A stretch of DNA of 58,843 nt, taken from the NCBI GenBank assembly GCA_900318335.1, contig ONKF01000028.1:1-58843 (forward strand). The letters are read 5' to 3'. Positions 359 through 38,697 of this stretch are shown in pieces; within the stretch, counting starts at the first letter, position 1; each line of letters starts with the position of its first letter. The position numbers were made by a program, and so were the translations under genes. This stretch comes from an uncultured Prevotellaceae bacterium (lineage in GTDB: Bacteria; Bacteroidota; Bacteroidia; Bacteroidales; Muribaculaceae). Below the pieces are notes generated by a model. It was not told the DNA's origin. It saw only the letters and a list, made by a program, of their open reading frames with translations, and did no database searches.

Positions 359-769
359 ATGTCAAGAATTGGTAAATTGCACATCGCCATCCCCGCTGGC
401 GTAACTGTTGAACAGAAGGATAACGTTCTCACCGTCAAGGGCCCCAAGGGCAGCCAGGGTTTCAAGAAAGAATTGGAAATTGTCGGCGTCGGTTACCGCG
501 CTACCAGCAACGGTCAAATCCTGGAGCTGGCCCTCGGTTACTCACACGCTATCTACTTGAAGATGCCGCCCGAGGTCAAGGTTGAAGCCAAGAGTGAGCG
601 CAACAAGAACCCGCTCATCACCCTCGAATCATGCGACAAGCAGCTCCTTGGCCAAATCTGTGCCAAGATCCGCTCCTTCCGCAAGCCCGAGCCTTACAAG
701 GGTAAAGGTGTTAAGTTTGTTGGCGAAGTTATTCGTCGTAAGTCTGGTAAAACGGCAGCTGCCAAATAA
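359..769 (+). CDS. rplF: 50S ribosomal protein L6, with an internal block missing
   Basis: The product is L6, a two-domain 23S rRNA-binding protein near the GTPase-associated centre. The start (MSRIGKLHIAIPAG) and the C-terminal domain (GVGYRA, LESCDKQLLGQ, KIRSFRKPEPYKGKG) are normal. After residue 31 (VKGPKG) the protein jumps at about base 451/452 directly to SQGFKKELEIVG. In Bacteroides L6 about 53 residues lie between these points, including the rest of the first domain's sheet and the HAFHGLYRSLV segment. The length is 136 aa against 189 aa for Bacteroides (from memory), which is exactly 53 codons short and in frame. Codon use and flanks are ordinary. It is either a true deletion or an assembly collapse. 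The gene identity is certain; the function of this form is doubtful. Confidence 0.95.
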   Translation: MSRIGKLHIAIPAGVTVEQKDNVLTVKGPKGSQGFKKELEIVGVGYRATSNGQILELALGYSHAIYLKMPPEVKVEAKSERNKNPLITLESCDKQLLGQICAKIRSFRKPEPYKGKGVKFVGEVIRRKSGKTAAAK

Positions 770-789
770 TTAAGTAGAAAGGAAACAAT

Positions 790-1131
790 ATGATATCCAA
801 ATCAGATAGAAGAAACAAGATCAAGGCCCGCATCCGCGGTCGCATCAGCGGTACCCCGGAGCGTCCCAGGCTGTGTGTCTTCCGCAGCAATAAGCAAATT
901 TATGCCCAGGTCATCGACGACGTAGCTGGCAATACCCTGTGCTCTGCTTCATCCAAGGGCATCACCGAGGGTTCCAAGAGCGAAATCGCCGCTAAGGTGG
1001 GCGAGGCTGTTGCCAAGAAAGCCCTCGAGGCTGGCATCAACACTGTAGTGTTTGACCGCAATGGCTTCCTGTTCCATGGTAGAGTTAAATCGTTGGCCGA
1101 CGGCGCACGCAAGGGCGGTCTTAAATTCTAA
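790..1131 (+). CDS. rplR: 50S ribosomal protein L18
   Basis: L18 binds 5S rRNA and links it to 23S rRNA in the central protuberance. The 113-aa length is normal. It has the basic N-terminus, the [21 protein letters not shown] block and the C-terminal [25 protein letters not shown] block expected for the family. It begins 20 bases after rplF and is followed closely by rpsE, in standard spc-operon order. Confidence 0.98.
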
Positions 1132-1139
1132 GAAACATC

Positions 1140-1658
1140 ATGCTGAAGAAAAATAATCGAGTAAAGGTTGCAGCCGACGCCGAACTCAAGGAGCGTCTGG
1201 TGGCTATCAACCGCACCACCAAGGTTACCAAGGGTGGTCGCACTTTCACCTTCGCTGCTATCGTTGTTGTCGGTGACGGCAACGGCGTTATCGGCTACGG
1301 ATTGGGTAAGGCCAATGAGGTTACCACCGCTATTTCCAAGGGTACCGAGGTGGCCAAGAAGAACCTGATCAAGGTCCCCGTTCACAAGGGCACTATTCCT
1401 CATGAGGTGGTCGCTAAGTTTGGCGGCAGCCGCATTATCATGAAGCCCGCTAGCGCCGGTACCGGTGTGAAGGCCGGTGGTGCTATGCGTGCCGTCTTCG
1501 AGACCGTCGGTGTTACCGATGTTATTTGTAAGTCCAAGGGCTCGAGCAACCCCCACAACCTCGTGAAGGCCACGCTCAAGGCTCTCGACGAGATGCGCAG
1601 CCCGGCTACCGTGGCTCACTATCGCGGCATTACTGTGGACAAGGTGTTTAACGGTTAA
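1140..1658 (+). CDS. rpsE: 30S ribosomal protein S5
   Basis: S5 is a small-subunit protein at the mRNA entry channel that contributes to decoding fidelity. The full 172-aa length is present, with the double-stranded-RNA-binding N-terminal domain ([20 protein letters not shown]) and the C-terminal domain ([12 protein letters not shown]). The ATG at 1140 lies 8 bases after the rplR stop, so the genes are tightly coupled. Confidence 0.98.
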
Positions 1659-1675
1659 ATTTTTGTTGAAAAGTT

Positions 1676-1858
1676 ATGGCAAAGATTCAGATTAAACAAG
1701 TGAAAAGCCGCATCAATCGTCCGGCTCGCCAAAAGAGAACCCTCGACGCTCTCGGTCTGAGGAAACTCAACCACACCGTCACCCTCGAGGCTACACCTCA
1801 GGTTCTGGGTATGGTAAACGCTGTTCGTCATCTGGTGGAAGTCACCAATGTTGATTAA
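1676..1858 (+). CDS. rpmD: 50S ribosomal protein L30
   Basis: L30 is a small large-subunit protein of 60 aa, the normal bacterial size. The family signature IKQVKSRINRPARQKRTLDALGL is clear in the first half, and the second half ends in the usual LGMVNAVRHLVEV helix. It sits between rpsE and rplO, as in other bacteria. Confidence 0.97.
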   Translation: MAKIQIKQVKSRINRPARQKRTLDALGLRKLNHTVTLEATPQVLGMVNAVRHLVEVTNVD

Positions 1859-1891
1859 TTCTTAAATTCTTCAAAACAAGAAAACAACATT

Positions 1892-2338
1892 ATGGAATTA
1901 CATGATTTAAAACCTGCTGTAGGTTCAAATAAGAAGAAAAGTCGCATCGGCCGCGGTCCCGGTTCGGGTAAGGGCGGTACATCGACTCGTGGTCACAAGG
2001 GTGCCAAGTCGCGCTCGGGTTACAAGCAGAAGGTCGGCTTCGAAGGCGGCCAGATGCCTCTCCAGCGCCGTGTCCCCAAGGGTGGTTTCAAGAACATCAA
2101 CCGCGTGGAGTACAAGGCCATCAACGTTGCTGTGCTTGAGGCACTCGCCGAGCAGAATAGTCTCGAGAAAATTACCGTTGCCAACCTCATCCAGGCTGGT
2201 TTGGTACGTAAGAACCAACTTGTTAAAATTTTGGGCCAGGGTCAGCTCAACCACAAGATTGAGGTTGAAGCCCATGCCTTCTCCAAAAAGGCCGAGGAGA
2301 TCATCACCGCTGCCGGTGGCTCAATCGTAAAACTCTAA
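1892..2338 (+). CDS. rplO: 50S ribosomal protein L15
   Basis: L15 is a 23S rRNA-binding assembly protein. The 148-aa length is normal. The glycine- and arginine-rich N-terminal tail ([21 protein letters not shown]) precedes the [17 protein letters not shown] block and a globular C-terminus. It ends 7 bases before secY, which is the usual arrangement and consistent with co-transcription. Confidence 0.97.
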
Positions 2339-2345
2339 CCTAACG

Positions 2346-3683
2346 ATGAAACTCATTGAAACATTAAAAAACATCTGGAAGATTGAGGACTTGCGCAAGC
2401 GCCTCATCACCACGTTCCTGTTCATTGTGATCTATCGCTTTGGATGCCATGTGGTGCTGCCGGGAATCAACCCCAGCGACCTTGAAGCCATGCGCAACTT
2501 CACCAACAGTGGTCTGATGCAGCTGCTCGATATGTTCTCGGGTGGCGCGTTCGGCCAGGCCTCGATCTTCGCGTTGGGTATCATGCCCTACATCACCGCC
2601 TCGATCGTTATCCAATTGATGGGTATGGTTGTACCCAGTTTCCAGAAGATGCAGCGCGAGGGTGAGAGTGGCCGCATGAAGCTCAATCAGTACACCCGTT
2701 ACCTCACTGTGTTCATCCTGCTTTTCCAGGCACCCGCCTATCTGTTGAACCTCCAGTACCAGGTTAACGCTGCCGGTGGTCATGCCCACATCGATGGCAT
2801 GACGATGGTTTATCTTTCCATCGTGCTCACCGCTGGTGCGATGTTGATTATGTGGCTCGGTGAGAAGATCACCGACAAGGGTATCGGCAACGGTATTTCC
2901 ATCATCATCTTGGTGGGTATCCTCGCCCGTTTCCCTGGCGCCATCGTTCAAGAGTTTACCGGCCGTCTCAACACCGCCCAGGGTGGTCTGGTGATGTTCC
3001 TGGTCGAGATCGTTATCCTGTTTGCTGTAACCGCTGGTGCTGTCATGCTCACCCAGGGTACCCGCAAGGTCCCCGTGCAGTATGCTAAGCGCATCGTCGG
3101 CAACAAGCAGTATGGTGGTGCCCGTCAGTATATCCCCTTGAAGGTCAATGCTGCTAACGTGATGCCCATCATCTTCGCTCAGGCTCTTATGTTCATCCCC
3201 ATCACCCTCGCCGGTTTTGGTGCCCGCCAGAACGACGCCGGTTTCCTGGGTTCGATTTCCCGCACCTTCGGTGACATGAACGGCTTCTGGTACAATGTGG
3301 TCTATTTCCTCATGATCGTCGCCTTCACCTACTTCTATACCGCCATCACCGTGCGTCCCACCCAGATGGCCGAGGAGATGAAGAAGAACAGCGGTTTCAT
3401 CCCCGGTATCAAGCCCGGTAAGAAGACCGCCGAGTATCTTGACTCGATCATGTCACGCATCACCCTGCCGGGTTCGATCTTCCTGGGTATCGTCGCCATC
3501 CTGCCCGCATTTGCCCGCTACTTTGGCGTCAACCAGCAGTTCGCCCAGTTCTTTGGTGGTACCTCTCTGCTGATTATCGTGGGTGTCGTTCTCGACACGC
3601 TCCAGCAGATTGAGACTCACCTGATGATGCACCACTATGATGGTCTGATGAAGTCTGGTAAAATCAAGGGTCGCTCCCGTTAA
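2346..3683 (+). CDS. secY: Protein translocase subunit SecY
   Basis: SecY is the channel-forming subunit of the SecYEG inner-membrane translocon. The 445-aa length is normal, with ten predicted membrane spans. Family blocks include FSGGAFGQASIFALGIMPYI (plug and second helix), the cytoplasmic loop with RKVPVQYAKR, the loop FRPTQMAEEMKKN-like segment and FIPGIKPGKKT. It is located after rplO and before map in the spc operon. The product exports most of the signal-peptide and lipoprotein precursors encoded elsewhere in the window. Confidence 0.98.
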   Translation: MKLIETLKNIWKIEDLRKRLITTFLFIVIYRFGCHVVLPGINPSDLEAMRNFTNSGLMQLLDMFSGGAFGQASIFALGIMPYITASIVIQLMGMVVPSFQKMQREGESGRMKLNQYTRYLTVFILLFQAPAYLLNLQYQVNAAGGHAHIDGMTMVYLSIVLTAGAMLIMWLGEKITDKGIGNGISIIILVGILARFPGAIVQEFTGRLNTAQGGLVMFLVEIVILFAVTAGAVMLTQGTRKVPVQYAKRIVGNKQYGGARQYIPLKVNAANVMPIIFAQALMFIPITLAGFGARQNDAGFLGSISRTFGDMNGFWYNVVYFLMIVAFTYFYTAITVRPTQMAEEMKKNSGFIPGIKPGKKTAEYLDSIMSRITLPGSIFLGIVAILPAFARYFGVNQQFAQFFGGTSLLIIVGVVLDTLQQIETHLMMHHYDGLMKSGKIKGRSR

Positions 3684-3726
3684 ATGACGCATTACCGGAT
3701 TTCTTGAAGAGTAATTCAATCGCACT

Positions 3727-4512
3727 ATGATATATCTCAAGACAGACGAGGAGATCGAGATGCTGCGCAGGGCCAATCAGGTCGTCGCAGGCACCCTGGC
3801 CGAAGTGGCCAAGTGGATCGCGCCGGGTATCACTACCCGCCGCCTCGACCAAATCGCTGAAGAGTATATCCGGTCCCAAGGCTGCACGCCCGGTTTCAAG
3901 GGCTTGTACGGCTTTCCCGCCACGCTCTGCACCTCGGTCAACGAGGTTGTAGTGCACGGCATCCCGTCGAACTACGTTCTCGAGGATGGCGACATCGTGT
4001 CCTGTGACTGTGGTGCCGTCACCCCCGAGGGGTTCAACGGCGACAGCACCTACACCTTCTGTGTCGGTGAAGTTGCCGAAGAGACCAAGCAGCTCCTGCG
4101 CACGACCAAGGAGTCACTCTATGTAGGCATCGAGCACGCTGTGCCCGGCAACCGCATCGGTGACATCTCCAGTGCCATCCAGCAATACTGCGAGCGCCGC
4201 AACTACAGCGTCGTGCGCGAGATGACTGGACATGGGGTAGGGCGCAAGCTGCACGAGGATCCCGAGGTGCCCAACTATGGTCGTCGCGGCACGGGTCCAC
4301 TGCTGCGCAACGGCATGACGATTGCCATCGAGCCCATGATCAACATGGGAGGCAAGAATATCATCACCGAGCGCGACGGATGGACCACCCGCACCCGCGA
4401 CCGCAAGCCCAGCGCTCACTTCGAGCACTCCATCGCCATCCATCATGGCAAGGCCGACATCCTTTCCTCCTTTGATGGTATCAAGGAGGTCCTGGGAGAC
4501 CGGTTCATCTGA
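3727..4512 (+). CDS. map: Type I methionine aminopeptidase
   Basis: This dimetal enzyme removes the initiator methionine from nascent proteins. The 261-aa length fits the short type I class. Metal ligands are visible in family motifs: the first aspartates in CDCGAVTPEGFNGD, the histidine in MTGHGVGRKLHEDP, and the glutamates in AIEPMI and AHFEHSIAIH. It lies between secY and infA, a common location, so it is co-expressed with the translation machinery. Confidence 0.97.
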   Translation: MIYLKTDEEIEMLRRANQVVAGTLAEVAKWIAPGITTRRLDQIAEEYIRSQGCTPGFKGLYGFPATLCTSVNEVVVHGIPSNYVLEDGDIVSCDCGAVTPEGFNGDSTYTFCVGEVAEETKQLLRTTKESLYVGIEHAVPGNRIGDISSAIQQYCERRNYSVVREMTGHGVGRKLHEDPEVPNYGRRGTGPLLRNGMTIAIEPMINMGGKNIITERDGWTTRTRDRKPSAHFEHSIAIHHGKADILSSFDGIKEVLGDRFI

Positions 4513-4570
4513 TTGAATCAAGACAACGCTTTTTAAGAAAACCAGTAATCGTTAATTTTAAAGATTTTAT

Positions 4571-4789
4571 ATGGCAAAACAGACAGCAATTGAATTAGAC
4601 GGCACTATCGTCGAGGCCCTGTCCAACGCAATGTTCCGCGTGGAGCTTGAGAACGGACACCAGATCACCGCTCACATCAGTGGCAAGATGCGCATGCATT
4701 ACATTAAAATTTTGCCCGGTGACAAGGTGAGAGTGGAAATGTCCCCCTACGATTTGTCTAAAGGAAGAATCTCATTTCGATACAAATAA
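4571..4789 (+). CDS. infA: Translation initiation factor IF-1
   Basis: IF-1 is a 72-aa single OB-fold protein that binds the ribosomal A site during initiation. The sequence is canonical, with the [19 protein letters not shown] start, the [17 protein letters not shown] core and the ending GRISFRYK. It is complete and follows map by 58 bases of AT-rich sequence. Confidence 0.98.
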
Positions 4790-4806
4790 CTAAATCACAA
4801 TACATT

Positions 4807-4899
4807 ATGAAAGTTAAGGACTGCAAGATCGTACGTCGCAAAGGGCGCCTTTATGTGATTAACAAAAAAAATCCCAAGTTTAAGCAGCGTCAGGGATAA
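4807..4899 (+). CDS. rpmJ: 50S ribosomal protein L36, with 8 residues missing
   Basis: L36 is a 38-residue zinc-ribbon-like protein in Bacteroidetes. This copy encodes only 30 residues. MKVK is followed directly (junction at about 4818/4819) by [19 protein letters not shown] and the normal end FKQRQG. The block normally found between them, resembling ASLKKRTP, is missing in frame (24 bases), so the sequence starts correctly and ends correctly. The position between infA and rpsM is the standard one. The shortening matches the pattern seen in rplF, rpoA and rplS. Confidence 0.93.
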
Positions 4900-4908
4900 A
4901 AAAAGTAT

Positions 4909-4916
4909 TAACTTTG
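4909..4916 (+). promoter_or_regulatory. Candidate -7 box of an internal promoter before rpsM
   Basis: The octamer TAACTTTG lies 21 bases upstream of the rpsM start, in the short rpmJ-rpsM gap, and matches the Bacteroidetes TAnnTTTG element. The -33 region is poor, so this is a weak call. It would allow rpsM-rpsK-rpsD-rpoA-rplQ to be transcribed apart from the spc operon. Confidence 0.4.
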
Positions 4917-4937
4917 CAAAAAATTTTGAATTAATAT

Positions 4938-5318
4938 ATGGCAGTAAGAATTGTCGGGGTTGATATTCCCCAAAACAAGCGCGGCGTCATCGCCTTGACC
5001 TACATCTTTGGTATCGGGCGCAGCTCAGCCGCTACAATCCTCAAGAAGGCCGGTGTCGACGAGAACACCCGCGTTAAGGATTGGACCGATGCCGAGGCAG
5101 CCGCAGTGCGTGAGGTGATCGGTAACGAATACAAGGTAGAAGGTGACCTGCGTAGCGAGGTCCAGATGAACATCAAGCGACTGATGGATATCGGTTGCTA
5201 CCGTGGCATCCGTCATCGCAACGGTCTCCCCGTTCGTGGTCAGAGCACCAAGAACAATGCTCGTACCCGCAAGGGCCGCAAGAAAACTGTTGCTAACAAG
5301 AAGAAAGCTACTAAATAA
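4938..5318 (+). CDS. rpsM: 30S ribosomal protein S13
   Basis: S13 sits in the head of the small subunit and contacts tRNA and the large subunit. The 126-aa length is normal. Family features are [20 protein letters not shown], the helix-two-turn-helix [10 protein letters not shown], the [14 protein letters not shown] motif and the basic tail ending in KKATK. It is the first gene of the alpha-operon segment. Confidence 0.98.
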
Positions 5319-5333
5319 CATTATTGAAGAACT

Positions 5334-5723
5334 ATGGCTAAAAAGACAGTCGCAGCTAAGAAGAGAGTCGTTCGCGTTGACGGTGTTGGTCAACTGCACG
5401 TGCATTCTTCGTTCAACAACATCATTGTGTGCCTCGCTAACAGTGAGGGACAGGTAATTTCGTGGTCCTCGGCTGGTAAGATGGGCTTCCGCGGTTCTAA
5501 GAAGAACACGCCCTACGCTGCCCAGATGGCTGCCGAAGATTGCGCAAAGGTCGCTTACGACCTCGGTTTGCGCAAGGTGAAGGCCTACGTCAAGGGTCCG
5601 GGTAATGGACGTGAGTCCGCTATCCGCACCATCCATGGCGCCGGCATCGCAGTTACCGAGATCATCGACGTCACGCCGCTGCCCCACAACGGCTGCCGTC
5701 CTCCCAAGAGAAGAAGGGTCTAA
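5334..5723 (+). CDS. rpsK: 30S ribosomal protein S11
   Basis: S11 lies on the platform of the small subunit near the mRNA exit. All 129 aa are present, including [12 protein letters not shown], the [17 protein letters not shown] block and the end [18 protein letters not shown]. It starts 15 bases after rpsM. Unlike its neighbours it is followed by a long gap (176 bases) before rpsD. Confidence 0.98.
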
Positions 5724-5899
5724 GAGAGTTAGACGCTTCACTCAGTCAATCATCTGTTTTAACAGGATTTTTTATTAACAACATTTTTCGCGAATCTCTA
5801 TCAGTGAATGGATTGCATTTTTTAACGACCTCTCTGCAATCGCGGCTGCACTGAAGCGATTCCAATTCACAACAGTTAATTAAATTTTAAAAAAAGACT
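5724..5899 (+). promoter_or_regulatory. Possible structured leader between rpsK and rpsD
   Basis: This 176-base AT-rich gap holds no gene but contains complementary segments. GATTGCA near 5810 pairs with TGCAATC near 5835, inside a longer imperfect pairing of GTGAAT(G)GATTG with a downstream GATTCCAATTCAC segment. A T-run follows an AACAGG segment near 5760. S4, the product of rpsD, is an autoregulator in other bacteria, so a leader that binds S4 is a reasonable guess. The function is inferred only. Confidence 0.3.
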
Positions 5900-6508
5900 A
5901 TGGCTAGATACACCGGTCCTAAAACTAAAATTGCCCGTAAACTGGGTGAACCCATCTTCGGTGAAGACAAGTACTTTGCCAAGAAGAACTATCCCCCGGG
6001 CCAGCATGGTGCCAACCGTCGCAGGAAGATGAGCGAGTACGGCACGCAGCTTCGCGAAAAACAGAAAGCTAAATACACCTATGGCGTTCTCGAACGTCAG
6101 TTCCGCAACCTCTTCAACAAGGCTTCTCGCATGAAGGGTGTTACCGGTGAGGTGCTCCTCCAGTTGCTCGAGGCACGACTCGACAACGTCGTTTATCGTC
6201 TGGGTATTGCTCCCACCCGCGCTGCAGCGCGTCAGCTCGTCCTGCATCGCCACATCACCGTCGATGGTAAGGTCGTTAACATTCCTTCCTACTCGGTGAG
6301 CGAGGGTCAAGTAGTTGCTGTTCGTGAGAAGTCCAAGTCCCTGGAGGTTATCCAGGACGCACTCGCTGGCTTCAACCACAGCAAGTATCCCTGGATCGAA
6401 TGGGACGAGAACGTCAAGGGCGGCAAGCTCTTGCACATGCCCGTTCGCGAGGATATTCCTGAGAACATCAAGGAGCAGTTGATCGTCGAGTTGTATTCTA
6501 AACAGTAA
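5900..6508 (+). CDS. rpsD: 30S ribosomal protein S4
   Basis: S4 is a primary 16S rRNA-binding assembly protein, and in several bacteria a translational regulator of its own operon. The 202-aa length is normal. The N-terminal block ([21 protein letters not shown]) and the S4 RNA-binding domain ([37 protein letters not shown]) are complete. It is preceded by the long gap at 5724-5899 and followed after 11 bases by rpoA. Confidence 0.98.
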
Positions 6509-6519
6509 AATTTTTATCC

Positions 6520-7458
6520 ATGGCTATTTTAGCATTTCAGAAACCCGACAAAGTCTTAATGTTGGGTGTTACCATCGGTAACGCGCTGCGCCGCATCCTC
6601 CTCTCCGGACTCGAGGGCTTCGCAATCTGCAGCATCCGCATCGACGGCGTGCAGCACGAGTTCGCAACCATCACGGGTGTGAAGGAAGATGTCACCAACA
6701 TCATCCTCAACCTCAAGAAGGTGCGCCTCAAACGCATTGTTGAAGACACCGACACCGAGAAGGCCGTTGTCAAGGTTTCAGGTCAAAGCGTCTTCAAGGC
6801 GGGTGACATCGGCAAGGTCCTCAGCGCGTTCGAGGTGCTCAACCCCGAGCTCGAGATCTGCCACATTGATCCCACTTGCGGTTTCCAGATTGAGCTCTCA
6901 ATCAACAAGGGTAGGGGATACCTCCCTGCCGAGGAGAACCGCAACGCCAACGACCCCATCGACGTGATCGCCATCGACTCGATCTACACGCCCATCCTGA
7001 ACGTGAAGACCGCCGTCGAGAACTTCCGTGTCGAGCAGAAGACCGACTACGAGAAGCTCATCATCGAGATCACCACCGATGGTTCCATCCATCCTAAGGA
7101 CGCTCTTAAGGGCGCTGCCGAGATTCTTATCCAGCACTTCCAGCTCTTCACCGACCGTGAAATCGTTATCGACAACACCGAGAGCAACGGCAACGAGGAG
7201 TTTGACGAGGAGGTACTCAAGATGCGTCAGCTGCTCAAGACCAAACTTGTTGACATGGACCTCTCTGTGCGCGCCCTCAACTGCCTCAAGTCAGCCGAGG
7301 TCGAGACGCTTGGAGAACTCGTGGTCTTCAACAAGACCGACCTGCTCAAGTTCCGCAACTTCGGTAAGAAGTCGCTCAGCGAGCTTGAGGAGCTGTTGGC
7401 CACACTCAATCTGCACTTTGGCATGGATATCACTAAATACAAATTAGAAAAAGAGTAA
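6520..7458 (+). CDS. rpoA: RNA polymerase alpha subunit, with 18 residues missing near the N-terminus
   Basis: Alpha forms the dimer that nucleates RNA polymerase assembly, and its C-terminal domain contacts DNA and regulators. The start [15 protein letters not shown] is normal, but at about 6564/6565 it runs straight into [18 protein letters not shown]. The block that normally lies between, containing the strongly conserved FGKFEFRPLEPGFG-type motif, is absent. The length is 312 aa against 330 in Bacteroides (from memory), which is exactly 18 codons in frame. The missing part belongs to the first strands of the assembly domain. The rest, including the C-terminal domain ([26 protein letters not shown]), is complete. 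Either the region is misassembled or this alpha is unusual. Confidence 0.95.
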
Positions 7459-7464
7459 AAAACA

Positions 7465-7947
7465 ATGAGACACAATAAGAAATTCAACCACCTGAGCCGT
7501 AAGAGCGCCCACCGTGATGCCATGTTGGCCAACATGACCATCTCCCTCATCATGCACAAGCGCATCATCACGACCCTCGCCAAGGCTAAAGCCCTGCGCG
7601 TGTATGCCGAACCCCTGATCAACAGGACCAAGGACGACACCACCGCTTCGCGTCGCCTCGTCTTCAAGCACCTCCAGAACAAGGAGGCCGTCAAGGAACT
7701 CTTCTCAACTGTTGCCGCTAAGGTGGCCGACCGTCCCGGTGGCTACACCCGCATCCTCAAGCTCGGTAACCGTCTGGGTGACAACGCCAAGACCTGCTTC
7801 ATCGAACTCGTTGACTTCAATGAGGCTATGCTCGAGGCCAAGAACCAGGAGAAGTCCACTCCCAAGAAGGCTACCCGCCGCAGCCGCAAGAAAGCCGCCG
7901 CTCCCGCAGCAGCTCCTGCAGCCGAGGCTCCCAAGACCGAGGAGTAA
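7465..7947 (+). CDS. rplQ: 50S ribosomal protein L17
   Basis: L17 is a large-subunit protein near the peptide exit tunnel. The 160-aa length includes the conserved core ([56 protein letters not shown]). It also has the long alanine/lysine-rich tail typical of Bacteroidetes L17. It is the last gene of the alpha operon and is followed by a strong terminator at 8014-8056. Confidence 0.98.
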
Positions 7948-8013
7948 ATCACTACCGATAAAGGGACTGTGGTCTTGTCGCGATAAGGCCACACTCTTTA
8001 AGATATCTCAATT

Positions 8014-8056
8014 AAAAAACACCCTGCACACCATCTCGTGTGCGGGGTGTTTTTTT
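8014..8056 (+). terminator. Terminator of the ribosomal protein operon
   Basis: ACACCCTGCACAC pairs with GTGTGCGGGGTGT across the 6-base loop CATCTC, with an A-run before and a T-run after the stem. It is therefore a good intrinsic terminator in the plus direction, and the A-run may also let it act on the minus strand. Confidence 0.9.
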
Positions 8057-8140
8057 AGGTTAGCCGATGAGGGTGTTTATTCTGGTCCTCTTAACGGCCG
8101 AGAAATTAAACAAAGTTTATGTCACAGCCTCATCGCGGAC

Positions 8141-8488
8141 TTATCGGTTCGGAATCGCGCGAGCGTTCTGCTGCCTGTCGAGGACTTGCATCTCGATAGC
8201 CTGTATCAGCTCCTGATTGGTGTTCAGTGTGTCGCCATCGGGTGAGATGACAAACATCGACTCAATCTGGGCACTCGTGCTGTCGGTATTCTCCATGTTG
8301 GCGATGATGACCTTGGACATGCGGTCCAGGAACATCTTGAGCGCTACTGTGTCGTTCTGGGCGTCAATTTCCTCGACAACCTGCTTGCCGTCGCTCATGT
8401 TCTGGACAAACGAGTAGTGCTTGGGCTTCTCGTTGCACGAGCCCAGCATGCACAGCGCGATGATGACAGCGGGAATGATTTTTCTCAT
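8141..8488 (-). CDS. Small lipoprotein of unknown function
   Basis: A 115-aa protein begins with a lipoprotein signal (MRKIIPAVIIALCMLGSC, lipobox LGSC). The mature part is a charged, mostly helical segment with no recognised domain. An alternative ATG at 8509 overlaps the end of the upstream ROK kinase gene; 8488 is preferred because it places the signal peptide directly at the N-terminus. The tight coupling suggests co-transcription with the kinase. The terminal region after it faces the ribosomal operon terminator. Confidence 0.7.
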   Translation of the reverse strand: MRKIIPAVIIALCMLGSCNEKPKHYSFVQNMSDGKQVVEEIDAQNDTVALKMFLDRMSKVIIANMENTDSTSAQIESMFVISPDGDTLNTNQELIQAIEMQVLDRQQNARAIPNR

Positions 8489-8501
8489 GATTATCTCTCG
8501 C

Positions 8502-9467: not shown

Positions 9468-9523
9468 GATTTTTGGTTCTTTTTATAAGTTGATAATAAG
9501 ATTGTTGTTACATACTTGAATCA

Positions 9524-9531
9524 CAAAGGTA
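9524..9531 (-). promoter_or_regulatory. Promoter -7 box of the ROK kinase gene
   Basis: Read on the minus strand the octamer is TACCTTTG, a perfect TAnnTTTG box, about 57 bases upstream of the kinase start. A TTGC element lies 18 bases further upstream. Confidence 0.65.
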
Positions 9532-9598
9532 ACATTTTTTGCCTTGATGGCAATATGTTACCTGTAATTTTTTATTTACAATAGCCCTTAACTATGGC

Positions 9599-27112: not shown

Positions 27113-27119
27113 CTTCTTG

Positions 27120-28657: not shown

Positions 28658-28665
28658 TAACTTTG
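28658..28665 (+). promoter_or_regulatory. -7 box before the flavodoxin gene
   Basis: TAACTTTG lies 30 bases before the ATG at 28696. The upstream region is AT-rich without a clear -33 element. Confidence 0.55.
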
Positions 28666-28695
28666 CGATGTCAAATCAATTAACAAGTTACTGAA

Positions 28696-29319: not shown

Positions 29320-29321
29320 CC

Positions 29322-29699: not shown

Positions 29700-29736
29700 C
29701 TGACAACTAAGGACTAACAACTAACAAACAAACACA

Positions 29737-30579: not shown

Positions 30580-30636
30580 CCTCCTCTGTCTTAATTAGGT
30601 AATTTATAGAGGCTTTGGCTGTTTTAGCCGAAAAGT

Positions 30637-30668
30637 TTTGGCATAGTTCTTGCAATTGAGTACCTTAG
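30637..30668 (+). promoter_or_regulatory. Candidate promoter of the glycine-zipper lipoprotein gene
   Basis: A TTTG element near 30637 is followed, 20 bases later, by TACCTTAG, a one-mismatch -7 box. A better-looking TAATTTTG lies at 30685-30692 but is too near the start codon. Confidence 0.4.
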
Positions 30669-30692
30669 CAGCATAAAAACTCTATAATTTTG

Positions 30693-31352
30693 ATGATTAA
30701 GATGAAGAAGACTGTTTTTGTTGGCCTTGCAGCAATCACCTTGTTGATGTCGAGCTGCCAGTCTATGGGCCAATTCTATGGTGCGACAACTGGTGCCTCG
30801 ATTGGCGGCATCTTTGGATCCGCTATCGGTGGTATGGCCGATGGCCCGCGTGGACATGATGTAGGCACGGTGGTCGGAATGGCCATTGGCGGCATTATTG
30901 GAGCTGCCGCTACTGCTCCCAAGACCGATGATGGTAATTATCGTTCGTCGGACTACTACTATGAATACGGTACGGACGATTACCGTCAGAACAACGCTTA
31001 CAGCCCCTTTGCCAACATCGAAATTGCGGAATTACGTTTCGTTGATCAGAACGACAACCGTTCACTGGATGCCGAGGAGCACGCAAAGCTGGTGTTCATC
31101 CTCCGCAACACGGGTCCTGACTACATCTACGACATTGCCCCTGTTATCACAGTGAGCGGCACCAAGGAAATTTTCCTCTCGCCCACAGCCATCGTCAAGG
31201 AGTTGGGTCCGGGCAAGGCAGTTAGATACCAGAGCGAGGTCATTGCCACCAAGAAACTGAAGAACGGTACAGCCGACTTCTCTATCGGTCTCTCGGACGG
31301 TGATAAGCTCTACACCCTACGCTCTTTCCAGCTGCGCACCAGCCGCCGCTGA
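30693..31352 (+). CDS. Glycine-zipper lipoprotein
   Basis: A 219-aa lipoprotein (lipobox LMSSC). A glycine-zipper segment (TTGASIGGIFGSAIGGMADG and VGMAIGGIIGAAATAP) of the kind found in outer-membrane lipoproteins comes first. A beta-rich C-terminal domain follows, starting FANIEIAELRFVDQNDNRSL, which looks like a CARDB/NEW3-type adhesion-like fold. ATGs at 30693 and 30702 are both possible. It is followed by a strong bidirectional terminator. Confidence 0.75.
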   Translation: MIKMKKTVFVGLAAITLLMSSCQSMGQFYGATTGASIGGIFGSAIGGMADGPRGHDVGTVVGMAIGGIIGAAATAPKTDDGNYRSSDYYYEYGTDDYRQNNAYSPFANIEIAELRFVDQNDNRSLDAEEHAKLVFILRNTGPDYIYDIAPVITVSGTKEIFLSPTAIVKELGPGKAVRYQSEVIATKKLKNGTADFSIGLSDGDKLYTLRSFQLRTSRR

Positions 31353-31381
31353 AAGCTGATTCCTGATTGGGGAGGTAGCAA

Positions 31382-31429
31382 ATACAGCAGACCCAAGGCG
31401 AGATCGCCTTGGGTCTGCTGTATGATTTT
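31382..31429. terminator. Bidirectional terminator between convergent genes
   Basis: ATACAGCAGACCCAAGGCGA (31382-31401) and its exact reverse complement (31404-31423) are separated by only two bases. A T-run at 31425-31429 serves the plus strand. It ends the glycine-zipper gene and faces murI, which stops at 31457. Confidence 0.9.
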
Positions 31430-31456
31430 TACTCCTATTTGAACGGTGTTGTCGTG

Positions 31457-32314
31457 TCAGGAGGATTGGAGGATGACGCGGCTGGCGTTGACGGGCTCGT
31501 TGACAAACACACTGGCCAGTGGGGAGAAGTGGTCAGGGTCCTCGGTGGTGAAGTATTCGCACGTGCCGCCCTGGCTGCAATGACGCTCGATTTCAGGGTG
31601 ACGTTGCAGGTAGTCGGCAAGGCTGTCTGCAACGATGGGCCCCTGTTGGACAACATTCACGCCCTCGGGCATATACTTGTTGATTTTGTCGATGAGCAGG
31701 GGATAGTGGGTGCAACCCAGGATGATGGTGTCTATCTCGGGGCAATCCCCCAATAGCAGCCGGATGTCCTTGTTGACAAAGTAGTCGGCACCGTCACCGT
31801 TGCTCTCGCGGTTCTCGACCAGCGGCACCCACATGGGACAGGCATGGCCATGGACTTTGTAGCCAGGGTACATCCCCTCGATCTCGATGTTGTAGCTTCC
31901 GCTGGCGATGGTGCCTGGTGTGCCAAACACGCCGATGTGTCCAGTGCGGGTCAGCTCACCCACCTTTTCCACAGTGGGGCGGACGACACCCAGCACGCGG
32001 CGGTCGGGTGCGATGACGGGCAGGTCGCGCTGCTGGATTGTGCGTAATGCCTCGGCCGAGGCTGTGTTACAGGCCAGGATGATGAGGTGGCACCCCTTGG
32101 CAAACAGGTGCTTAACGGCTTGCAGGGTGAACTCATAGACCAGTTCGCGAGAACGGGTACCATAGGGGGCACGCGCGTTGTCGCCGACAAACAGGTAGTC
32201 ATATTGCGGCAGCACCCGCCTGATGTCACGCAGGATAGTCAATCCCCCGAAACCGGAATCAAAAACTCCGATGGGAGCCTGTTCGATGTCACTGCCTTGT
32301 GTAGTTATTGCCAT
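31457..32314 (-). CDS. murI: Glutamate racemase
   Basis: The enzyme makes D-glutamate for peptidoglycan. The 285-aa sequence has the N-terminal GVFDSGFGGLTILRD and both catalytic cysteines: Cys82 in LACNTASAEA and Cys201 in LGCTHYPLL. It is divergent from folP, and the two -7 boxes are only about 23 bases apart. Confidence 0.96.
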   Translation of the reverse strand: MAITTQGSDIEQAPIGVFDSGFGGLTILRDIRRVLPQYDYLFVGDNARAPYGTRSRELVYEFTLQAVKHLFAKGCHLIILACNTASAEALRTIQQRDLPVIAPDRRVLGVVRPTVEKVGELTRTGHIGVFGTPGTIASGSYNIEIEGMYPGYKVHGHACPMWVPLVENRESNGDGADYFVNKDIRLLLGDCPEIDTIILGCTHYPLLIDKINKYMPEGVNVVQQGPIVADSLADYLQRHPEIERHCSQGGTCEYFTTEDPDHFSPLASVFVNEPVNASRVILQSS

Positions 32315-32334
32315 GTCAGATAATTATTGTTGTG

Positions 32335-32373
32335 CAAAGGTAATCCATTTTTGGGAAATGTTTTGTAACTTTG
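32335..32373. promoter_or_regulatory. Closely spaced divergent promoters of murI and folP
   Basis: A minus-strand TACCTTTG (32335-32342) serves murI and a plus-strand TAACTTTG (32366-32373) serves folP. The -33 regions of the two promoters must overlap, so the two units may compete for RNA polymerase. Confidence 0.6.
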
Positions 32374-32401
32374 CAAGCTAAATTGATATTACGACTCGAC
32401 A

Positions 32402-33274
32402 ATGTGTCCGTTTAAGACCTATAGCCTGAATCTGCATGGCAGGCTGGTGACCATCGACCGTCCTTGGGTGATGGGCATCATCAATGTCACGCCTGACTCA
32501 TTCTATAGCGGCAGCAGGGTCAATGATGAGCATTCGCTGGCCAATCGCGTCAGGCTCATGATTGACGAGGGTGCCGATGTTATCGACGTTGGAGCATGTT
32601 CGACACGGCCCGGCAGTGAGTCGGTTGATGCTATGGGCGAGATGGAGCGCCTGCAATGGGCGCTGGCTGTCATCCGCCGCGAGGCACCTGATGTGGTGCT
32701 CTCGGTCGACACCTATCGTGCAGCGGTGGCACGCCGTTGTGTGGAAGACTGGGGTGCCGACATCATCAACGACATTTCTGGCGGCACTATCGACAAGGAA
32801 ATGTTCCCGACGGTAGCAAGTCTGAATGTCCCTTATGTGCTCATGCACATGCGCGGCACGCCCGAGACCATGTCGTCGCTCACCGACTATGACAATGTCG
32901 CTGGCGACGTCCTCGAGTGGATGGCACGCCGCATCGATGACTTGCGCCAGATGGGCGTTGCCGATGTGATTGCCGACCCGGGTTTCGGCTTTGCCAAGAC
33001 CGTGGAGCAGAACTATGAACTGCTGGCGCGCCTCAATGCGTTTCACGCCCTGAATGCGCCATTGCTGGTGGGCGTTTCGCGCAAGCGGATGATTTACACC
33101 CCATTAGGGTGCACACCCGACACTGCGTTAAACGGAACTACTGTCATTAACACGCTTGCCCTGCAGCAGGGAGCCCACATCCTTAGGGTTCACGACGTGA
33201 AAGCGGCCGTCGAGGCCGTGAAACTCACCACCCTGTTGCGGCAGGCCAGCACTAATTCCAAGACGATTGCATGA
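32402..33274 (+). CDS. folP: Dihydropteroate synthase
   Basis: The enzyme condenses p-aminobenzoate with a pterin pyrophosphate in folate synthesis and is the sulfonamide target. The 290-aa protein has VMGIINVTPDSF, DVGACSTRPGS, and the later motifs NDISGG and ADPGFGFAKT. Its stop overlaps the start of cdaA in the sequence ATGA, so the two are translationally coupled. Confidence 0.96.
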   Translation: MCPFKTYSLNLHGRLVTIDRPWVMGIINVTPDSFYSGSRVNDEHSLANRVRLMIDEGADVIDVGACSTRPGSESVDAMGEMERLQWALAVIRREAPDVVLSVDTYRAAVARRCVEDWGADIINDISGGTIDKEMFPTVASLNVPYVLMHMRGTPETMSSLTDYDNVAGDVLEWMARRIDDLRQMGVADVIADPGFGFAKTVEQNYELLARLNAFHALNAPLLVGVSRKRMIYTPLGCTPDTALNGTTVINTLALQQGAHILRVHDVKAAVEAVKLTTLLRQASTNSKTIA

Positions 33275-34065
33275 TACTATTGGCAACATCCGTATTCTCA
33301 CTGTTCAGCATCAAGGATCTGATTGATATCTTGTTGGTGGCGACATTGCTGTTCTACCTGTACCGCACGATGAAGGACTCGGGTTCGCTCGACATTTTCG
33401 TCGGTGTGCTTGCATTTGTTGTCGCATGGGTGGTGATGTACAAGATGATGGACATGCGCCTTATCGGTACCATCATGGACAAGTTTATCGATATCGGCTT
33501 GTTCATCCTTGTGATTCTGTTTCAGGACGAGATCAAGCGCTTTCTCACCGAGCTTGGTTCGAGACGGGGCCTCAAGATTTTTGAGAAATTGTTCAAGAGC
33601 AAGGCCGAGATTGAAGATGAGAAGAAGTGGATCCTGCCGGTGGTATACGCCTGCATGAATATGGCTAAATCCAAGACCGGTGCCCTGATTGTGGTGCAGC
33701 GAACGATACCGCTTACCGACTATGAGCGCACGGGTGACATGATCAGGGCCGACATCAATTCCCGCCTCATCGAGAATATTTTCTTCAAGAACAGCCCCCT
33801 GCATGACGGCGCCCTGATTATCGCCGGCAGCAAGATCATGAGTGCCGGATGCATCCTGCCTGTATCTCATGATACCAGCATCCCCCGGTACCTGGGATTG
33901 CGTCACCGTTCGGCCAAGGGCATTGCCCAGGCAACCGACGCCATCGCGATTGTCGTCAGCGAGGAGACGGGCCGCATTTCTTATGCTCACAAGGGAGAGT
34001 TGCACCTCAATCTCTCGAGCACTGACCTCGAACACGCCCTGTCGGCACTTGTCGAGAATGATTAG
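33271..34065 (+). CDS. cdaA: Membrane diadenylate cyclase
   Basis: The enzyme makes cyclic di-AMP, a second messenger for potassium and cell-wall homeostasis, from two ATP molecules. The 264-aa protein has N-terminal membrane segments (about residues 17-55 and 75-85) and the DAC domain. The catalytic motifs are LHDGA (177-181) and GLRHRSA (209-215). The close coupling with folP is typical for Bacteroidales. Confidence 0.96.
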   Translation: MILLATSVFSLFSIKDLIDILLVATLLFYLYRTMKDSGSLDIFVGVLAFVVAWVVMYKMMDMRLIGTIMDKFIDIGLFILVILFQDEIKRFLTELGSRRGLKIFEKLFKSKAEIEDEKKWILPVVYACMNMAKSKTGALIVVQRTIPLTDYERTGDMIRADINSRLIENIFFKNSPLHDGALIIAGSKIMSAGCILPVSHDTSIPRYLGLRHRSAKGIAQATDAIAIVVSEETGRISYAHKGELHLNLSSTDLEHALSALVEND

Positions 34066-34084
34066 ATGATATTAGAAGTTAAGA

Positions 34085-34669
34085 ATGTTTGATATAGATG
34101 GAACACTGGTGAGTCTTGACCTGGTCGAGCGGTTCTTCTGCTGCGACCTGGATACGTGTCTGGGTGCTTGCTGCATCGAGGGCGATTCGGGTGCGCCGTT
34201 GACACGGGAGGAATACGAGCAGCTCAAGGCCATCCTGCCTGAAGTTTGGGACGACCTCTTGCCCCAAGCGCAACAACAGATTACCGAGAACGGGGTAGCC
34301 TTTGTTGACGTCGAGGGTGAACTGGTCACCCAGCTCGTGGGTGGGGCCAACTGTGTGTTCACCACCTACGAGAGAGGTGGAATGTGCTTGTGTGCCATCG
34401 AGAAAGCCTATCGTGAGGGCCGCATCAAGTGGCGCAAACCCATTTCCTGCTATCTTTACCCTGTACGCATCAAGCGATACCCAGGTTATGACGCTGTGAA
34501 TTTTGACCGCTGGAAAATCTGCAAGTGTGCCGAAGTCTTAGGCCGACGCGAGGGCATCCGCCTCTATCAGTTCCTGCGTGAGCCGCTCATCGAGCGCTAC
34601 GGTCAGGAGTGGTATGACCAGCTTGTCGCAGCATGTGAATTGTATATTAAAGAGTATTTATCAGAATAG
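34085..34669 (+). CDS. DUF3109 family protein
   Basis: A 194-aa cytoplasmic protein of the cysteine-rich DUF3109 family. Cysteine pairs are at FFCCDLDTCLGACC, and further cysteines at GGANCVFT, MCLCAIEKAY, ISCYLY and WKICKCAEV, fitting a metal (zinc or Fe-S) centre. The start MFDIDGTLVSLDLVERF is the family start. The role is unknown. It follows cdaA and is probably in the folP-cdaA operon. Confidence 0.85.
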   Translation: MFDIDGTLVSLDLVERFFCCDLDTCLGACCIEGDSGAPLTREEYEQLKAILPEVWDDLLPQAQQQITENGVAFVDVEGELVTQLVGGANCVFTTYERGGMCLCAIEKAYREGRIKWRKPISCYLYPVRIKRYPGYDAVNFDRWKICKCAEVLGRREGIRLYQFLREPLIERYGQEWYDQLVAACELYIKEYLSE

Positions 34670-34675
34670 TATAAA

Positions 34676-36403
34676 ATGAGATTTAGATATTTGTTCGCAG
34701 TATTATCTTTATTGGTGTTTGTGCCCGTGATGGCGCAGATGACCTTTGACGGCAAGCGTCCGGTTTACGATAAGTTGACCGACACCTACCTGTTGACGCT
34801 GCCCGAGTCGACCTTTGGCCATCCTTATAGCGCTGTGCCTGTCATCGACGACACCGTGTCGTGGGTGAACCTTGCTGGTAAGATGGTGAGGCAAACGGCC
34901 GATTTCCCCATTGTAAAGGGTGATACGGTCTATCAGATGATGTATGCCCACAATGGCCGTTTGACAAAAACCAGGTTGCGCCTCACTTATCTTCCCATCC
35001 TGTGTATGGAGGGCACTTTCGATACCGAGTATACAGTGGGCAACGTGGATATAACGATGCCCGAGGACACTTGTACACAGCATTACCAGGCACGCATCAA
35101 GTGGGCTGGCGGAACGACCACCTATGACTGGATCCATAAGCATAATTATCATCTGAAATTTGTGGATGAGAATCTGGAGAAGATGGATGTCTCGTTTTTC
35201 GGCCTTCGCAACGACAACCACTGGCGACTGGATGCCGGCATTGTGGACATGCTGCGATTCCGCAACAAGGCTGCCCACGCTCTGTGGGCCGATTTTGGCA
35301 ACAAGCCCTATTATGCCGCTTCAGAGCCCAAGGCCCGCAACTACGCACGTGGCCATCATGTCGAGGTCTTTCTCAACGGGGATTACATGGGCTTCTTTGA
35401 CCTGACCGAGTTCCTTGACCGCAAGCAGATGAAGCTCAAGAAGTATGATGAGGCCAATGGCAAGTTCCGCGGTATGATGTGGAAAGCCAAGGTCGGTACA
35501 GAGCAGACCTTGTTTGCTGCAACGACCCCCTATGATAACAATTCCGACAGTTGGGCTGGCTTTGAGGTGATGTACCCCGACTTTGATGAGGTGGCTCCCA
35601 CCAACTACCGATTGCTTTACGATGCCATCAAGTTTGTTTCAAGGAGCGATTCGGCCACGTTTGCTTCTCAAGTGGGTGACTATTTCGACTTGCCCATCCT
35701 TGTGGATTATTATGTGTTCATCCACACGCTGTATGCAATCGACAACTCGTGCAAGAACATCATCTGGGGATGCTATGATAGCTCTGTTGACAAGAAGTTG
35801 ACGTTGTCGGTTTGGGACCTTGAGGCGACGGTGGGCCAGCACTGGTATAATGGAGAAGGCTATTACCGTGCACCTGAGATCCAGCCCGAGAATGATCTCG
35901 ACAAGCCTCACCAGCGTTTCTCGGAATTGTGGCGCAACAAGTTGTTCATGCAGTTGAAGGCATTGCCCGACTTCCACAATCAGGTGTTAACCCGCTACTG
36001 GCAATTGCGGCAGAACGTGCTGCGACCCGACAGTTTGATTAAGCGCTATGCCGACATCTATGCCTATCTTGAGAAGTGCGGTGCCCTTAACCGTGAGACT
36101 GAGCGATGGAGCGGCGACGACGACATCTCTGGGCTGCCTCTGGATTTCGAGGGAGAGTTCGAGTATCTGAGTGATTGGATCAGGCGCCGCATCGCTTATC
36201 TCGATACTGTGACATTTGCCTATTTGCATGGCGATGTTGATGGAAATGGGGTAGTGTCGATCATGGACCTCTCCTATATGCTGGATTATCTGCTGGATGG
36301 CGACGATGGGAAGATTAACATCCTGAATGCTGATGTGGATTCCAATGCTAAGGTGGATCTGAAGGACTTGGCATCGCTCATCGATTTGTTGCTTACTAAC
36401 TGA
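34676..36403 (+). CDS. CotH-like protein with C-terminal dockerin repeats, copy 1
   Basis: A 575-aa secreted protein. The signal peptide ends at PVMAQ. An N-terminal beta domain (about 25-130) precedes a CotH kinase-like domain (about 150-440) with LRNDNHWRLDAG, RNKAAHALWADFG and VEVFLNGDYMGFFDLTEFLDR. Further conserved blocks are DYYVFIHTLYAIDNSCKNII and LSVWDLEATVGQHW. CotH proteins are atypical protein kinases in spore coats and secreted proteins. The C-terminus holds two dockerin-like repeats with GDVDGNGVVSIMDLSYMLDYL and ADVDSNAKVDLKDLASLIDLL. It is followed 72 bases later by a paralogue. Confidence 0.85.
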   Translation: MRFRYLFAVLSLLVFVPVMAQMTFDGKRPVYDKLTDTYLLTLPESTFGHPYSAVPVIDDTVSWVNLAGKMVRQTADFPIVKGDTVYQMMYAHNGRLTKTRLRLTYLPILCMEGTFDTEYTVGNVDITMPEDTCTQHYQARIKWAGGTTTYDWIHKHNYHLKFVDENLEKMDVSFFGLRNDNHWRLDAGIVDMLRFRNKAAHALWADFGNKPYYAASEPKARNYARGHHVEVFLNGDYMGFFDLTEFLDRKQMKLKKYDEANGKFRGMMWKAKVGTEQTLFAATTPYDNNSDSWAGFEVMYPDFDEVAPTNYRLLYDAIKFVSRSDSATFASQVGDYFDLPILVDYYVFIHTLYAIDNSCKNIIWGCYDSSVDKKLTLSVWDLEATVGQHWYNGEGYYRAPEIQPENDLDKPHQRFSELWRNKLFMQLKALPDFHNQVLTRYWQLRQNVLRPDSLIKRYADIYAYLEKCGALNRETERWSGDDDISGLPLDFEGEFEYLSDWIRRRIAYLDTVTFAYLHGDVDGNGVVSIMDLSYMLDYLLDGDDGKINILNADVDSNAKVDLKDLASLIDLLLTN

Positions 36404-36475
36404 ACAGGTGAGTGATTTATTCATGGATAGACAATAATTAACAGATATATTAGGATAAAAGTAAAAGATTAAGAA

Positions 36476-38206
36476 ATGAAACATCGATTGTTTTTCATGG
36501 TCTTATTATTGTTGTGCGGGGTACAAGCTATGAACGCACAATTCACATTAGATGGCAGGCGGCCGTTCTATGACAGCCGCACCCATATCTATCTTCTTCC
36601 CGTACCCCCCGATTACTATGGTAAATCCATCAAACTGAGCTTTGTGGCCGATGATTCTATCTCCTGGGTAACCCAAGACTCCTGGGACGTCACCGACTAC
36701 ATGTATTTCAGGAAATTGCAAAGCGACACCACCTACACCTTCAGCTATTGGGTGTGGCCCGTTGGCTATGCCTCTAAACTGCGCTTCACATCGCTGCCCG
36801 TTATGAAGCTTGTGGGAGACATCGGGGATGAATATGTCAATGGCGAGGTGCTCATGCAGTTCCCCGAAGACACAACCACCCTTAGGCTGAACGCCAAAAT
36901 CAAGTGGGCGGGCTCGTCCACCAACAGGCCTTGGTACAAGAAGCACAACTATCACATCAAGTTCCTTGACGAGAACATGGAGAAGATGGATGTCTCCTTC
37001 TATGGCCTGCGCAACGACAACCACTGGCGCATCGATGGAGGTGTGATTGACCTGGGCAGGGTCCGCAACAAGGTGTCTCATGGCCTGTGGGCCGACATGG
37101 CTCGGAAACCTTATTATTCCGATGTGCAGCCCAATGCCAGGTCCTATTGCCGTGGCTTCCTGGTTGACCTCCATGTCAATGACAAGTATAGGGGATTCTG
37201 TGACATGACGGAGTATCTGGACCGAAAACAGATGAAACTGAAAAAGTACGATGATGAGAACCACGTGTTCCATGGCATGCTCTGGAAGGCCAAAACCGTC
37301 ACAATGCAGACACTCTTTGCGGCCAACACCGTTTATAATAACTACTCTGACAATTGGGGCGGCTTTGAGCTGGAGTATCCCAATCTGGATGATGTCAACC
37401 CCACCGACTACCACATCTTGAGCGACGCTGTTGAATTTGTGGCCAACAGCACCGACCGGGAGTTTCAGGAGCATGTGGGCGAGTATTTTGATCTGCCTGT
37501 CCTTGTGGACTATTATGTTTTCATCAATGTGCTATTGGCTTCGGATAATGTTGGCAAGAATATTATGTGGGCCTGCTATGACTGTCAGGCGGATAAGAAA
37601 CTCACGCTGGCTGTGTGGGACCTGGATGCCGTGATGGGACAGTATTGGTCCAATGAGGATGAATATTACCATGGCCCGGTGGTAGCTCCCGAGAATGACC
37701 TGAAAGACGTGTCAAGTTTCGGAGAAAACCGCCTTTTCAACCGCTTGATGGAGTGGCCTGAGTTCAGCAAACAGGTGAATGACCGCTACTGGCTCCTGCG
37801 CAAGAATGTCCTTACCCCCAATAGCCTAATCCGCCGCTTCTCTTCGCTCTACAACATGTTGCGTGCCTACGGAGCTGTCTATCGCGAGGAGGATTATTTC
37901 AATCACAGCACCGACATCTCGGGCCGTGAACTCAATTTCAGCAATGAGCTGGAATATGTGAGCGACTGGATCCGCCGCCGTATCGCTTACCTGGACAACA
38001 ACACATTCAAGCGCGAGGACGGTTATGTGATGGGCGATATGGACGGTGATCATGAGGTGGGCATCAGCGACGCCAATGTGCTGATTGATGTCATCCTGGG
38101 TAAAGATGTTACCGAGGAGATGCTCTTCTATGCCGACCTGAACGGTGACGGCGAGGTGACCATCAGTGACGTGAATGCGCTCATTGACCTGATTCTGTCC
38201 CGATAG
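36476..38206 (+). CDS. CotH-like protein with C-terminal dockerin repeats, copy 2
   Basis: A 576-aa paralogue of copy 1 with the same architecture. The signal peptide ends at AMNAQ. The CotH-like domain has LRNDNHWRIDGG, GFLVDLHVNDKYRGFCDMTEYL and VWDLDAVMGQYW. Two dockerin-like repeats are at the end: GDMDGDHEVGISDANVLIDVI and ADLNGDGEVTISDVNALIDLI. The pair arose by tandem duplication and has since diverged throughout. The substrate is unknown; secreted CotH proteins can phosphorylate other secreted proteins. Confidence 0.85.
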   Translation: MKHRLFFMVLLLLCGVQAMNAQFTLDGRRPFYDSRTHIYLLPVPPDYYGKSIKLSFVADDSISWVTQDSWDVTDYMYFRKLQSDTTYTFSYWVWPVGYASKLRFTSLPVMKLVGDIGDEYVNGEVLMQFPEDTTTLRLNAKIKWAGSSTNRPWYKKHNYHIKFLDENMEKMDVSFYGLRNDNHWRIDGGVIDLGRVRNKVSHGLWADMARKPYYSDVQPNARSYCRGFLVDLHVNDKYRGFCDMTEYLDRKQMKLKKYDDENHVFHGMLWKAKTVTMQTLFAANTVYNNYSDNWGGFELEYPNLDDVNPTDYHILSDAVEFVANSTDREFQEHVGEYFDLPVLVDYYVFINVLLASDNVGKNIMWACYDCQADKKLTLAVWDLDAVMGQYWSNEDEYYHGPVVAPENDLKDVSSFGENRLFNRLMEWPEFSKQVNDRYWLLRKNVLTPNSLIRRFSSLYNMLRAYGAVYREEDYFNHSTDISGRELNFSNELEYVSDWIRRRIAYLDNNTFKREDGYVMGDMDGDHEVGISDANVLIDVILGKDVTEEMLFYADLNGDGEVTISDVNALIDLILSR

Positions 38207-38241
38207 TTGACTCGATATTAGGACTCTAACATGAGGAATGT

Positions 38242-38275
38242 TAAAAAATGATGGTGAAAAAAACGTCATTTTTTA
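38242..38275 (+). terminator. Weak AT-rich terminator after the CotH pair
   Basis: TAAAAAATGA pairs with TCATTTTTTA across a 14-base loop. The stem is only A-T rich, so this is a low-strength candidate between CotH copy 2 and the rplS promoter. Confidence 0.35.
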
Positions 38276-38305
38276 TTGTCGGTTTGAGAAATTGTACTAC
38301 CTTTG
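38276..38305 (+). promoter_or_regulatory. Promoter of rplS
   Basis: TTG (38276-38278) and TACCTTTG (38298-38305) are spaced by 19 bases. The leader to the ATG at 38390 is about 75 bases. Confidence 0.65.
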
Positions 38306-38389
38306 CACCGCTTTTCGTAATCTCTGACAAGAAAGAGTGTAGCTTGTGTATATTGCGAAGTGATTATTAACGATTTAAATAACATAACA

Positions 38390-38697
38390 ATGGACTTGAT
38401 TAAAGTTGCTGAACAAGCATTTGCTACAGGCAAGCAGCACCCGCAGTTTTTCCCGGGTGACACAATCACGGTAGCATACCGCATCAAGGAGGGTAACAAG
38501 GAGCGTATCCAGCAGTACCGTGGTGTGGTAACATCGGTGTAGAGCGTATTTTCCCGCTCGAGTCTCCGTTTATCGACAGCATTTCCATCAACAAGCATGG
38601 TAAGGTACGTCGTGCCAAGCTGTATTACCTGCGTGGTCTCACCGGTAAGAAGGCTCGCATCAAGGAGCGCCGCATTATCAAGAAGGAGGAGGCATAA
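38390..38697 (+). pseudogene. rplS: 50S ribosomal protein L19, frame broken by an internal deletion
   Basis: L19 lies at the subunit interface and is essentially always intact. The first 47 residues (MDLIKVAEQAFATGKQHPQ to YRGVV) are normal, then the frame runs to a stop at 38542. From 38530, in another frame, the protein resumes as [17 protein letters not shown] and ends normally in [12 protein letters not shown]. The roughly 20 residues that normally link VV to the NIGVERIF block (a KIxGxGxxxxFTVRKMSG-like segment) are missing. The missing length is not a multiple of three (frame +2 before, +1 after). The junction lies at GGTAAC, 38527-38532. The gene is real but broken as sequenced. Confidence 0.92.

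Follow-up and report, generated by a model that had tools for sequence, protein, structure and literature searches.

Internal blocks missing from rplF, rpmJ, rpoA and rplS of a Muribaculaceae metagenome assembly are very probably assembly errors

Introduction

Scaffold gaps that carry a wrong estimated length are a known type of error in assembled genomes. Local assembly errors in metagenome-assembled genomes have also been described; they are suspected most in IDBA-UD assemblies, and they put wrong sequence at single sites of good contigs, so that incorrect protein-coding genes come into databases (Chen et al., 2020; PMC7111523). The RUG genomes were assembled with IDBA-UD where single samples were used, and with MEGAHIT in the case of co-assemblies (Stewart et al., 2019). 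Here we report on four universal genes, rplF, rpmJ, rpoA and rplS, each of which lacks an internal block in contig ONKF01000028.1 (C24) of assembly GCA_900318335.1, filed as an uncultured Prevotellaceae bacterium and placed by GTDB in the Muribaculaceae. The whole contig, positions 1 to 58,843, was analysed and is referred to as the window. The damage is like that of Chen et al. in being confined to single sites of a good contig and in yielding incorrect protein-coding genes; it is unlike theirs since the errors described in the passages compared here consist of unsupported consensus and Ns despite an overlap, whereas in the present contig the join has swallowed a short block and shows no Ns. 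Among the papers listed in literature searches, no title or abstract opening describes this pattern.

The genome under study (G000) comprises 3.15 Mb in 70 contigs, with a completeness estimate of 92.9%. Closest to it among named records stand two metagenome assemblies, RUG11775 and RUG11934, both filed as uncultured Bacteroidales, and the other near relatives belong to the Muribaculaceae, several of them of ruminant origin.

Results

The sequence to the left and right of each junction was anchored in 129 loci from relatives, among which a few genomes are counted twice. All four gaps proved private to the G000 assembly, being absent from every relative examined. In rplF (ribosomal protein L6; 359..769, + strand) 144 base pairs (bp) are missing in frame at 451/452, and among the 57 loci that hold both anchors the block measures 144 bp in 39, 159 bp in four and less than 144 bp in none. 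In rpmJ (L36; 4807..4899, + strand) the in-frame gap of 24 bp lies at 4816/4817; both anchors were found in 21 loci, with exactly 24 bp in 12 and 14-49 bp in the other nine, the left anchor falling mostly within a variable spacer. In rpoA (6520..7458, + strand) 54 bp are missing in frame at 6564/6565, close to the start of the N-terminal domain, and all 62 loci in which both anchors were found keep precisely this length. Thus for these three genes the block is retained in 57/57, 21/21 and 62/62 anchored loci. The fourth gap, in rplS (L19; 38390..38697, + strand), removes 58 bp at 38529/38530, shifts the frame and leads to a TAG at 38540-38542; the block is carried by six genomes, and the script recorded it as absent from one more, G007, the translation of which nevertheless contains it. 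The DNA blocks themselves are missing, which rules out mis-called open reading frames, and there is no N anywhere in the window, the four junctions included.

The anchoring confirms what a preliminary description had noticed in the sequence of the window, namely that the four genes are shortened internally while their flanks are intact. The sizes given there hold for rpmJ (24 bp), rpoA (54 bp) and rplS (58-60 bp, out of frame), yet not for rplF, for which 159 bp had been proposed; that figure fits a Bacteroides family length and is wrong for this genus. Likewise, the idea that each in-frame product equals the family length minus the missing block is correct for rpmJ and rpoA and fails for rplF, where restoring 144 bp gives an L6 of 184 residues.

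In L6 of G000 Pfam recognises a single L6 domain, so that the two-domain hallmark of bacterial L6 is missing from its rplF product; of the 101 genus genomes, 29 have no L6 match, and the 71 others that do have one all show two. (The L6 genes of G041 and G107 were considered as further in-frame cuts and dropped, as both matches reach contig ends.) The Pfam match of L36 begins at profile position 12, the RpoA protein is shorter by 18 residues, lost close to where its N-terminal domain starts, and L19 is split over two frames by the stop mentioned above. The genes cut in frame keep open reading frames and still match their own protein families.

The damage is not limited to the window. Forty stretches of G000 were fetched, 493,530 bases in all; N accounts for 12,290 of them and fills five small contigs completely, apart from one run of 12. 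Other universal genes were located with pieces of Escherichia coli proteins. Two cuts, one of 30 bp in frame and one of 23 bp out of frame, were found in rpsB (S2; contig C17, L187:8928-9726). The pnp gene is split between contigs C54 (L188:10531) and C14 (L189:113-1300) and lacks 117 bp near its start. A response-regulator gene that we take to be porX-like (contig C32, L190:1063) has lost 65 bp with a shift of frame, its receiver domain being matched by Pfam over positions 1-62 of 111, and this cut shows that not only ribosomal genes are affected. Contig ends interrupt rpsH and pnp, and the rpsB contig stops about 28 codons into a gene that, judged by eye, is tsf-like. The search with E. coli protein pieces gave no match for L2, L11, L20 and S15 in G000; the same search left G018 without L2, L11 and S2, and G024 without L2, L11, L20, S15 and PNPase.

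Sister assemblies are damaged as well, at places of their own. When 12 window proteins were compared over 15 loci, frame breaks appeared in map of G009 (L144), in rplR of G019 (L147) and in rpsM of G024 (L148). L19 was found in 94 of the 101 genus genomes, and seven other genomes, chosen for their odd L19 matches, were inspected closely (G050, G059 and G091, whose matches are partial, were not among them). Six of these seven have a damaged rplS, each differently, and five with a change of frame: G007 (L141), G017 (L150), G021 (L242), G094 (L243) and G096 (L244). G080 (L246) has a 20-residue in-frame gap, and the odd match of G083 permits no unambiguous call. Such independent and mostly frame-breaking damage to one gene across assemblies is what assembly error predicts.

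How does G000 compare with its relatives in this respect? Eleven genomes were compared in pairs, those with less than 3 kb aligned being skipped, and a deletion was counted if it measured 12 bp or more and each of its 40-bp flanks reached 80% identity; each event is counted once per relative, and true species differences are included in the rates. G000 shows 39 deletions in 346.7 kb of pairwise alignment, or 11.3 per 100 kb, and the ten relatives range from 0 to 7.9: G019 7.9, G024 7.4, RUG11934 6.8, G007 5.3, G009 4.3, G002 4.0, G006 1.6, G018 0.7 (2 in 294.3 kb), and G017 and G043 0. Over the 91 kb shared by G000 and G018 alone there are six deletions in G000 and none in G018. Private events, defined as a block present in at least two other genomes and absent in none by the script, number 17; G000 accounts for seven, and the other 10 are spread over five assemblies. 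The rplS cut is excluded from this list through the scoring of G007, two of the G019 events may be one, and two events measure only 12 bp. G000 is the worst of the compared set, though not alone, and its deletion rate, even if inflated by the choice of regions, speaks against chance as the origin of the gaps.

With respect to reading frame, five of the eight cuts in named G000 genes are in frame (P 0.088 against the one third expected), and with seven cuts from other assemblies added the count is 6/15 (P 0.38 against one third); the events are few, and there is no significant excess of in-frame cuts, with G000 leaning towards them. The list of 15 was compiled by hand. It leaves aside G000 events seen against a single relative, both elsewhere in the genome (L187:2761 and 8235, L190:2064, L195:3973, L219:1231, L220:2527 and 3027) and in the window (7906, 16765, 35458, 39634, 47511 and 56056), and, from other assemblies, the 12-bp events, the single-relative events, the rplS damage of G017, G021, G094 and G096, the pnp event of G019 (86 or 90 bp) and a gap of 70-72 bp near the rpmJ end in RUG11934. 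As to position, the four window cuts lie within 7,375 scorable bases (1-7947 together with rplS), and the 15,982 scorable bases in the rest of the window contain no cut by the same criterion, for which at least two relatives had to have both flanks at 80% identity or more. By hand arithmetic, the chance that evenly spread cuts would all four fall in the first class is about 0.01. The few other gaps in the window, each seen against one relative only, are taken as ordinary differences.

The junctions were read by eye in alignments, among them rplF against four relatives and rpoA against twelve loci. The bases shared with the relatives' blocks number 0 at rplF, rpmJ and rplS and about 1 at rpoA, counts that are approximate because the missing blocks are known from relatives alone; the rpsB and pnp junctions look similar, with 0-1 shared bases. 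A shared word of about k-mer length was thus not found at the junctions when these were compared by eye with the blocks of relatives. The sole N-run inside the 40 fetched stretches consists of 12 Ns at L198:8404-8415 (contig C61), and at this place G017 and G024 hold about 117 and 120 bp, as read from coordinates. If the run is a scaffold gap, its length has been underestimated by about 105 bp, a value between the smallest and the largest of the four cuts.

The neighbouring genes rplR, rpsE, rpmD, rplO, secY, map, infA, rpsM, rpsK, rpsD and rplQ are open and can be aligned to relatives, in agreement with the earlier statement that neighbouring ribosomal genes are complete; rpsH (1..343, + strand) is cut by the contig start, and the conserved operon is thereby interrupted by the contig end. 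Immediately upstream of rplS lie two adjacent genes for CotH-kinase proteins (34676-36403 and 36476-38206), both of which carry a dockerin type I domain at the C-terminus.

Discussion

Taken together, the comparisons indicate with high confidence that the four gaps are metagenome-assembly errors of one kind or another. This reading follows from the blocks that relatives keep, from the further damage in G000 and from the independent damage in sister assemblies; cuts recur at unrelated places, in G000 and in similar assemblies. The preliminary description had proposed collapse during assembly as the default explanation, and its artefact part is borne out on these three grounds; collapse of a repeat, on the other hand, agrees poorly with junctions at which only 0-1 bp are shared.

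One may ask whether the organism could have truly lost these parts of L6, L36, RpoA and L19, together with those of S2, PNPase and the porX-like protein, and yet survive. Three of the four window cuts are in frame and leave open reading frames, as real deletions might, but a frameshift breaks the genes for L19, S2 and the porX-like protein, L6 retains one domain of two, the rplF, rpmJ and rpoA junctions occur in no relative with both anchors, and sister assemblies are damaged likewise at other places, so that true deletions are exceedingly improbable. A milder form, in which at least the three in-frame cuts are real and the frameshifts are separate assembly errors, would leave the organism with a pared-down ribosome and RNA polymerase, without most of the first domain of L6, eight residues of L36 and eighteen of the alpha subunit; we give it hardly any credence either. 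It is also very improbable that full-length copies or the missing pieces stand elsewhere in the genome, as duplicates or as genes in pieces. Five small contigs consist entirely of N and cannot be searched by eye, which leaves some room for such copies, but the whole genome has a single L6 domain match, L19 is present only as its two halves, and when the intact spc-alpha region of RUG11934 was used as a 14-kb query, neither the rplF nor the rpoA block turned up at another site among the 40 scored of 79 first-look candidates (a search to which the rpmJ block, at 24 bp, is not suited by its length). Within this scope, no gene pieces or second copies were found.

Within the artefact reading, what remains to be considered is the step at which the blocks were lost. 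The assembly graph may have skipped them by way of stretches identical among congeners, through the removal of bubbles or tips. The window cuts sit in the most conserved genes, and contig breaks fall in the same operon in several relatives, both of which fit such skipping; passage via a shared k-mer, however, should be recognisable from a word common to both sides of the junction, where 0-1 bp are seen, and we consider this step rather unlikely. Mis-sized joining is favoured, if by a small margin over even chances, as the responsible step. The assembly would have broken at loci common to congeners, which presumably co-occurred in the sample, and the re-joined pieces would have been placed with too short a gap length, down to zero, with a loss of 24-144 bp and no Ns; a gap length estimated at zero would give a blunt join. 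The living organism would have the full genes. The likeness to wrong-length scaffold gaps lies in the 12 Ns that stand for about 117 and 120 bp, an error sized like the cuts, and the difference in that no Ns mark the four junctions.

Several observations weigh against assembly error or against this mechanism, and they should be set beside it. The compared regions are centred on G000 cuts, so that the G000 deletion rate is inflated relative to the others. Three of the four window cuts and five of the eight genome cuts are in frame, above one third, and a 21-bp in-frame gap in map of G019, seen in three comparisons, unlisted by the private filter and outside the 15, would bring the pooled count to 7/16. 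At the rplF, rpmJ and rpoA junctions the closest relative does not switch in an identity profile to eight relatives, read by eye and with coverage that varies by stretch; there is hence no direct sign of chimerism, which was set aside for these three junctions in view of the steady profile. Conservation and G+C content of the rplF, rpmJ, rpoA and first rpsB blocks are unremarkable, and nothing consistent emerged across these four blocks that would single them out. Finally, the step of mis-sized gaps draws on one N-run, and an operator may have introduced these 12 Ns as a mask.

The pattern points to a class of silent error in which short blocks are lost without Ns from conserved genes, and it concerns a genus for which metagenome assemblies are the main source of knowledge. 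Even at a completeness rating of 92.9%, several of the most conserved genes of an assembly can be broken, and the in-frame cases may pass for real in trees, protein families and structure models. For the organism itself, the four gaps almost certainly reveal no biology and are not real features of its ribosome or RNA polymerase.

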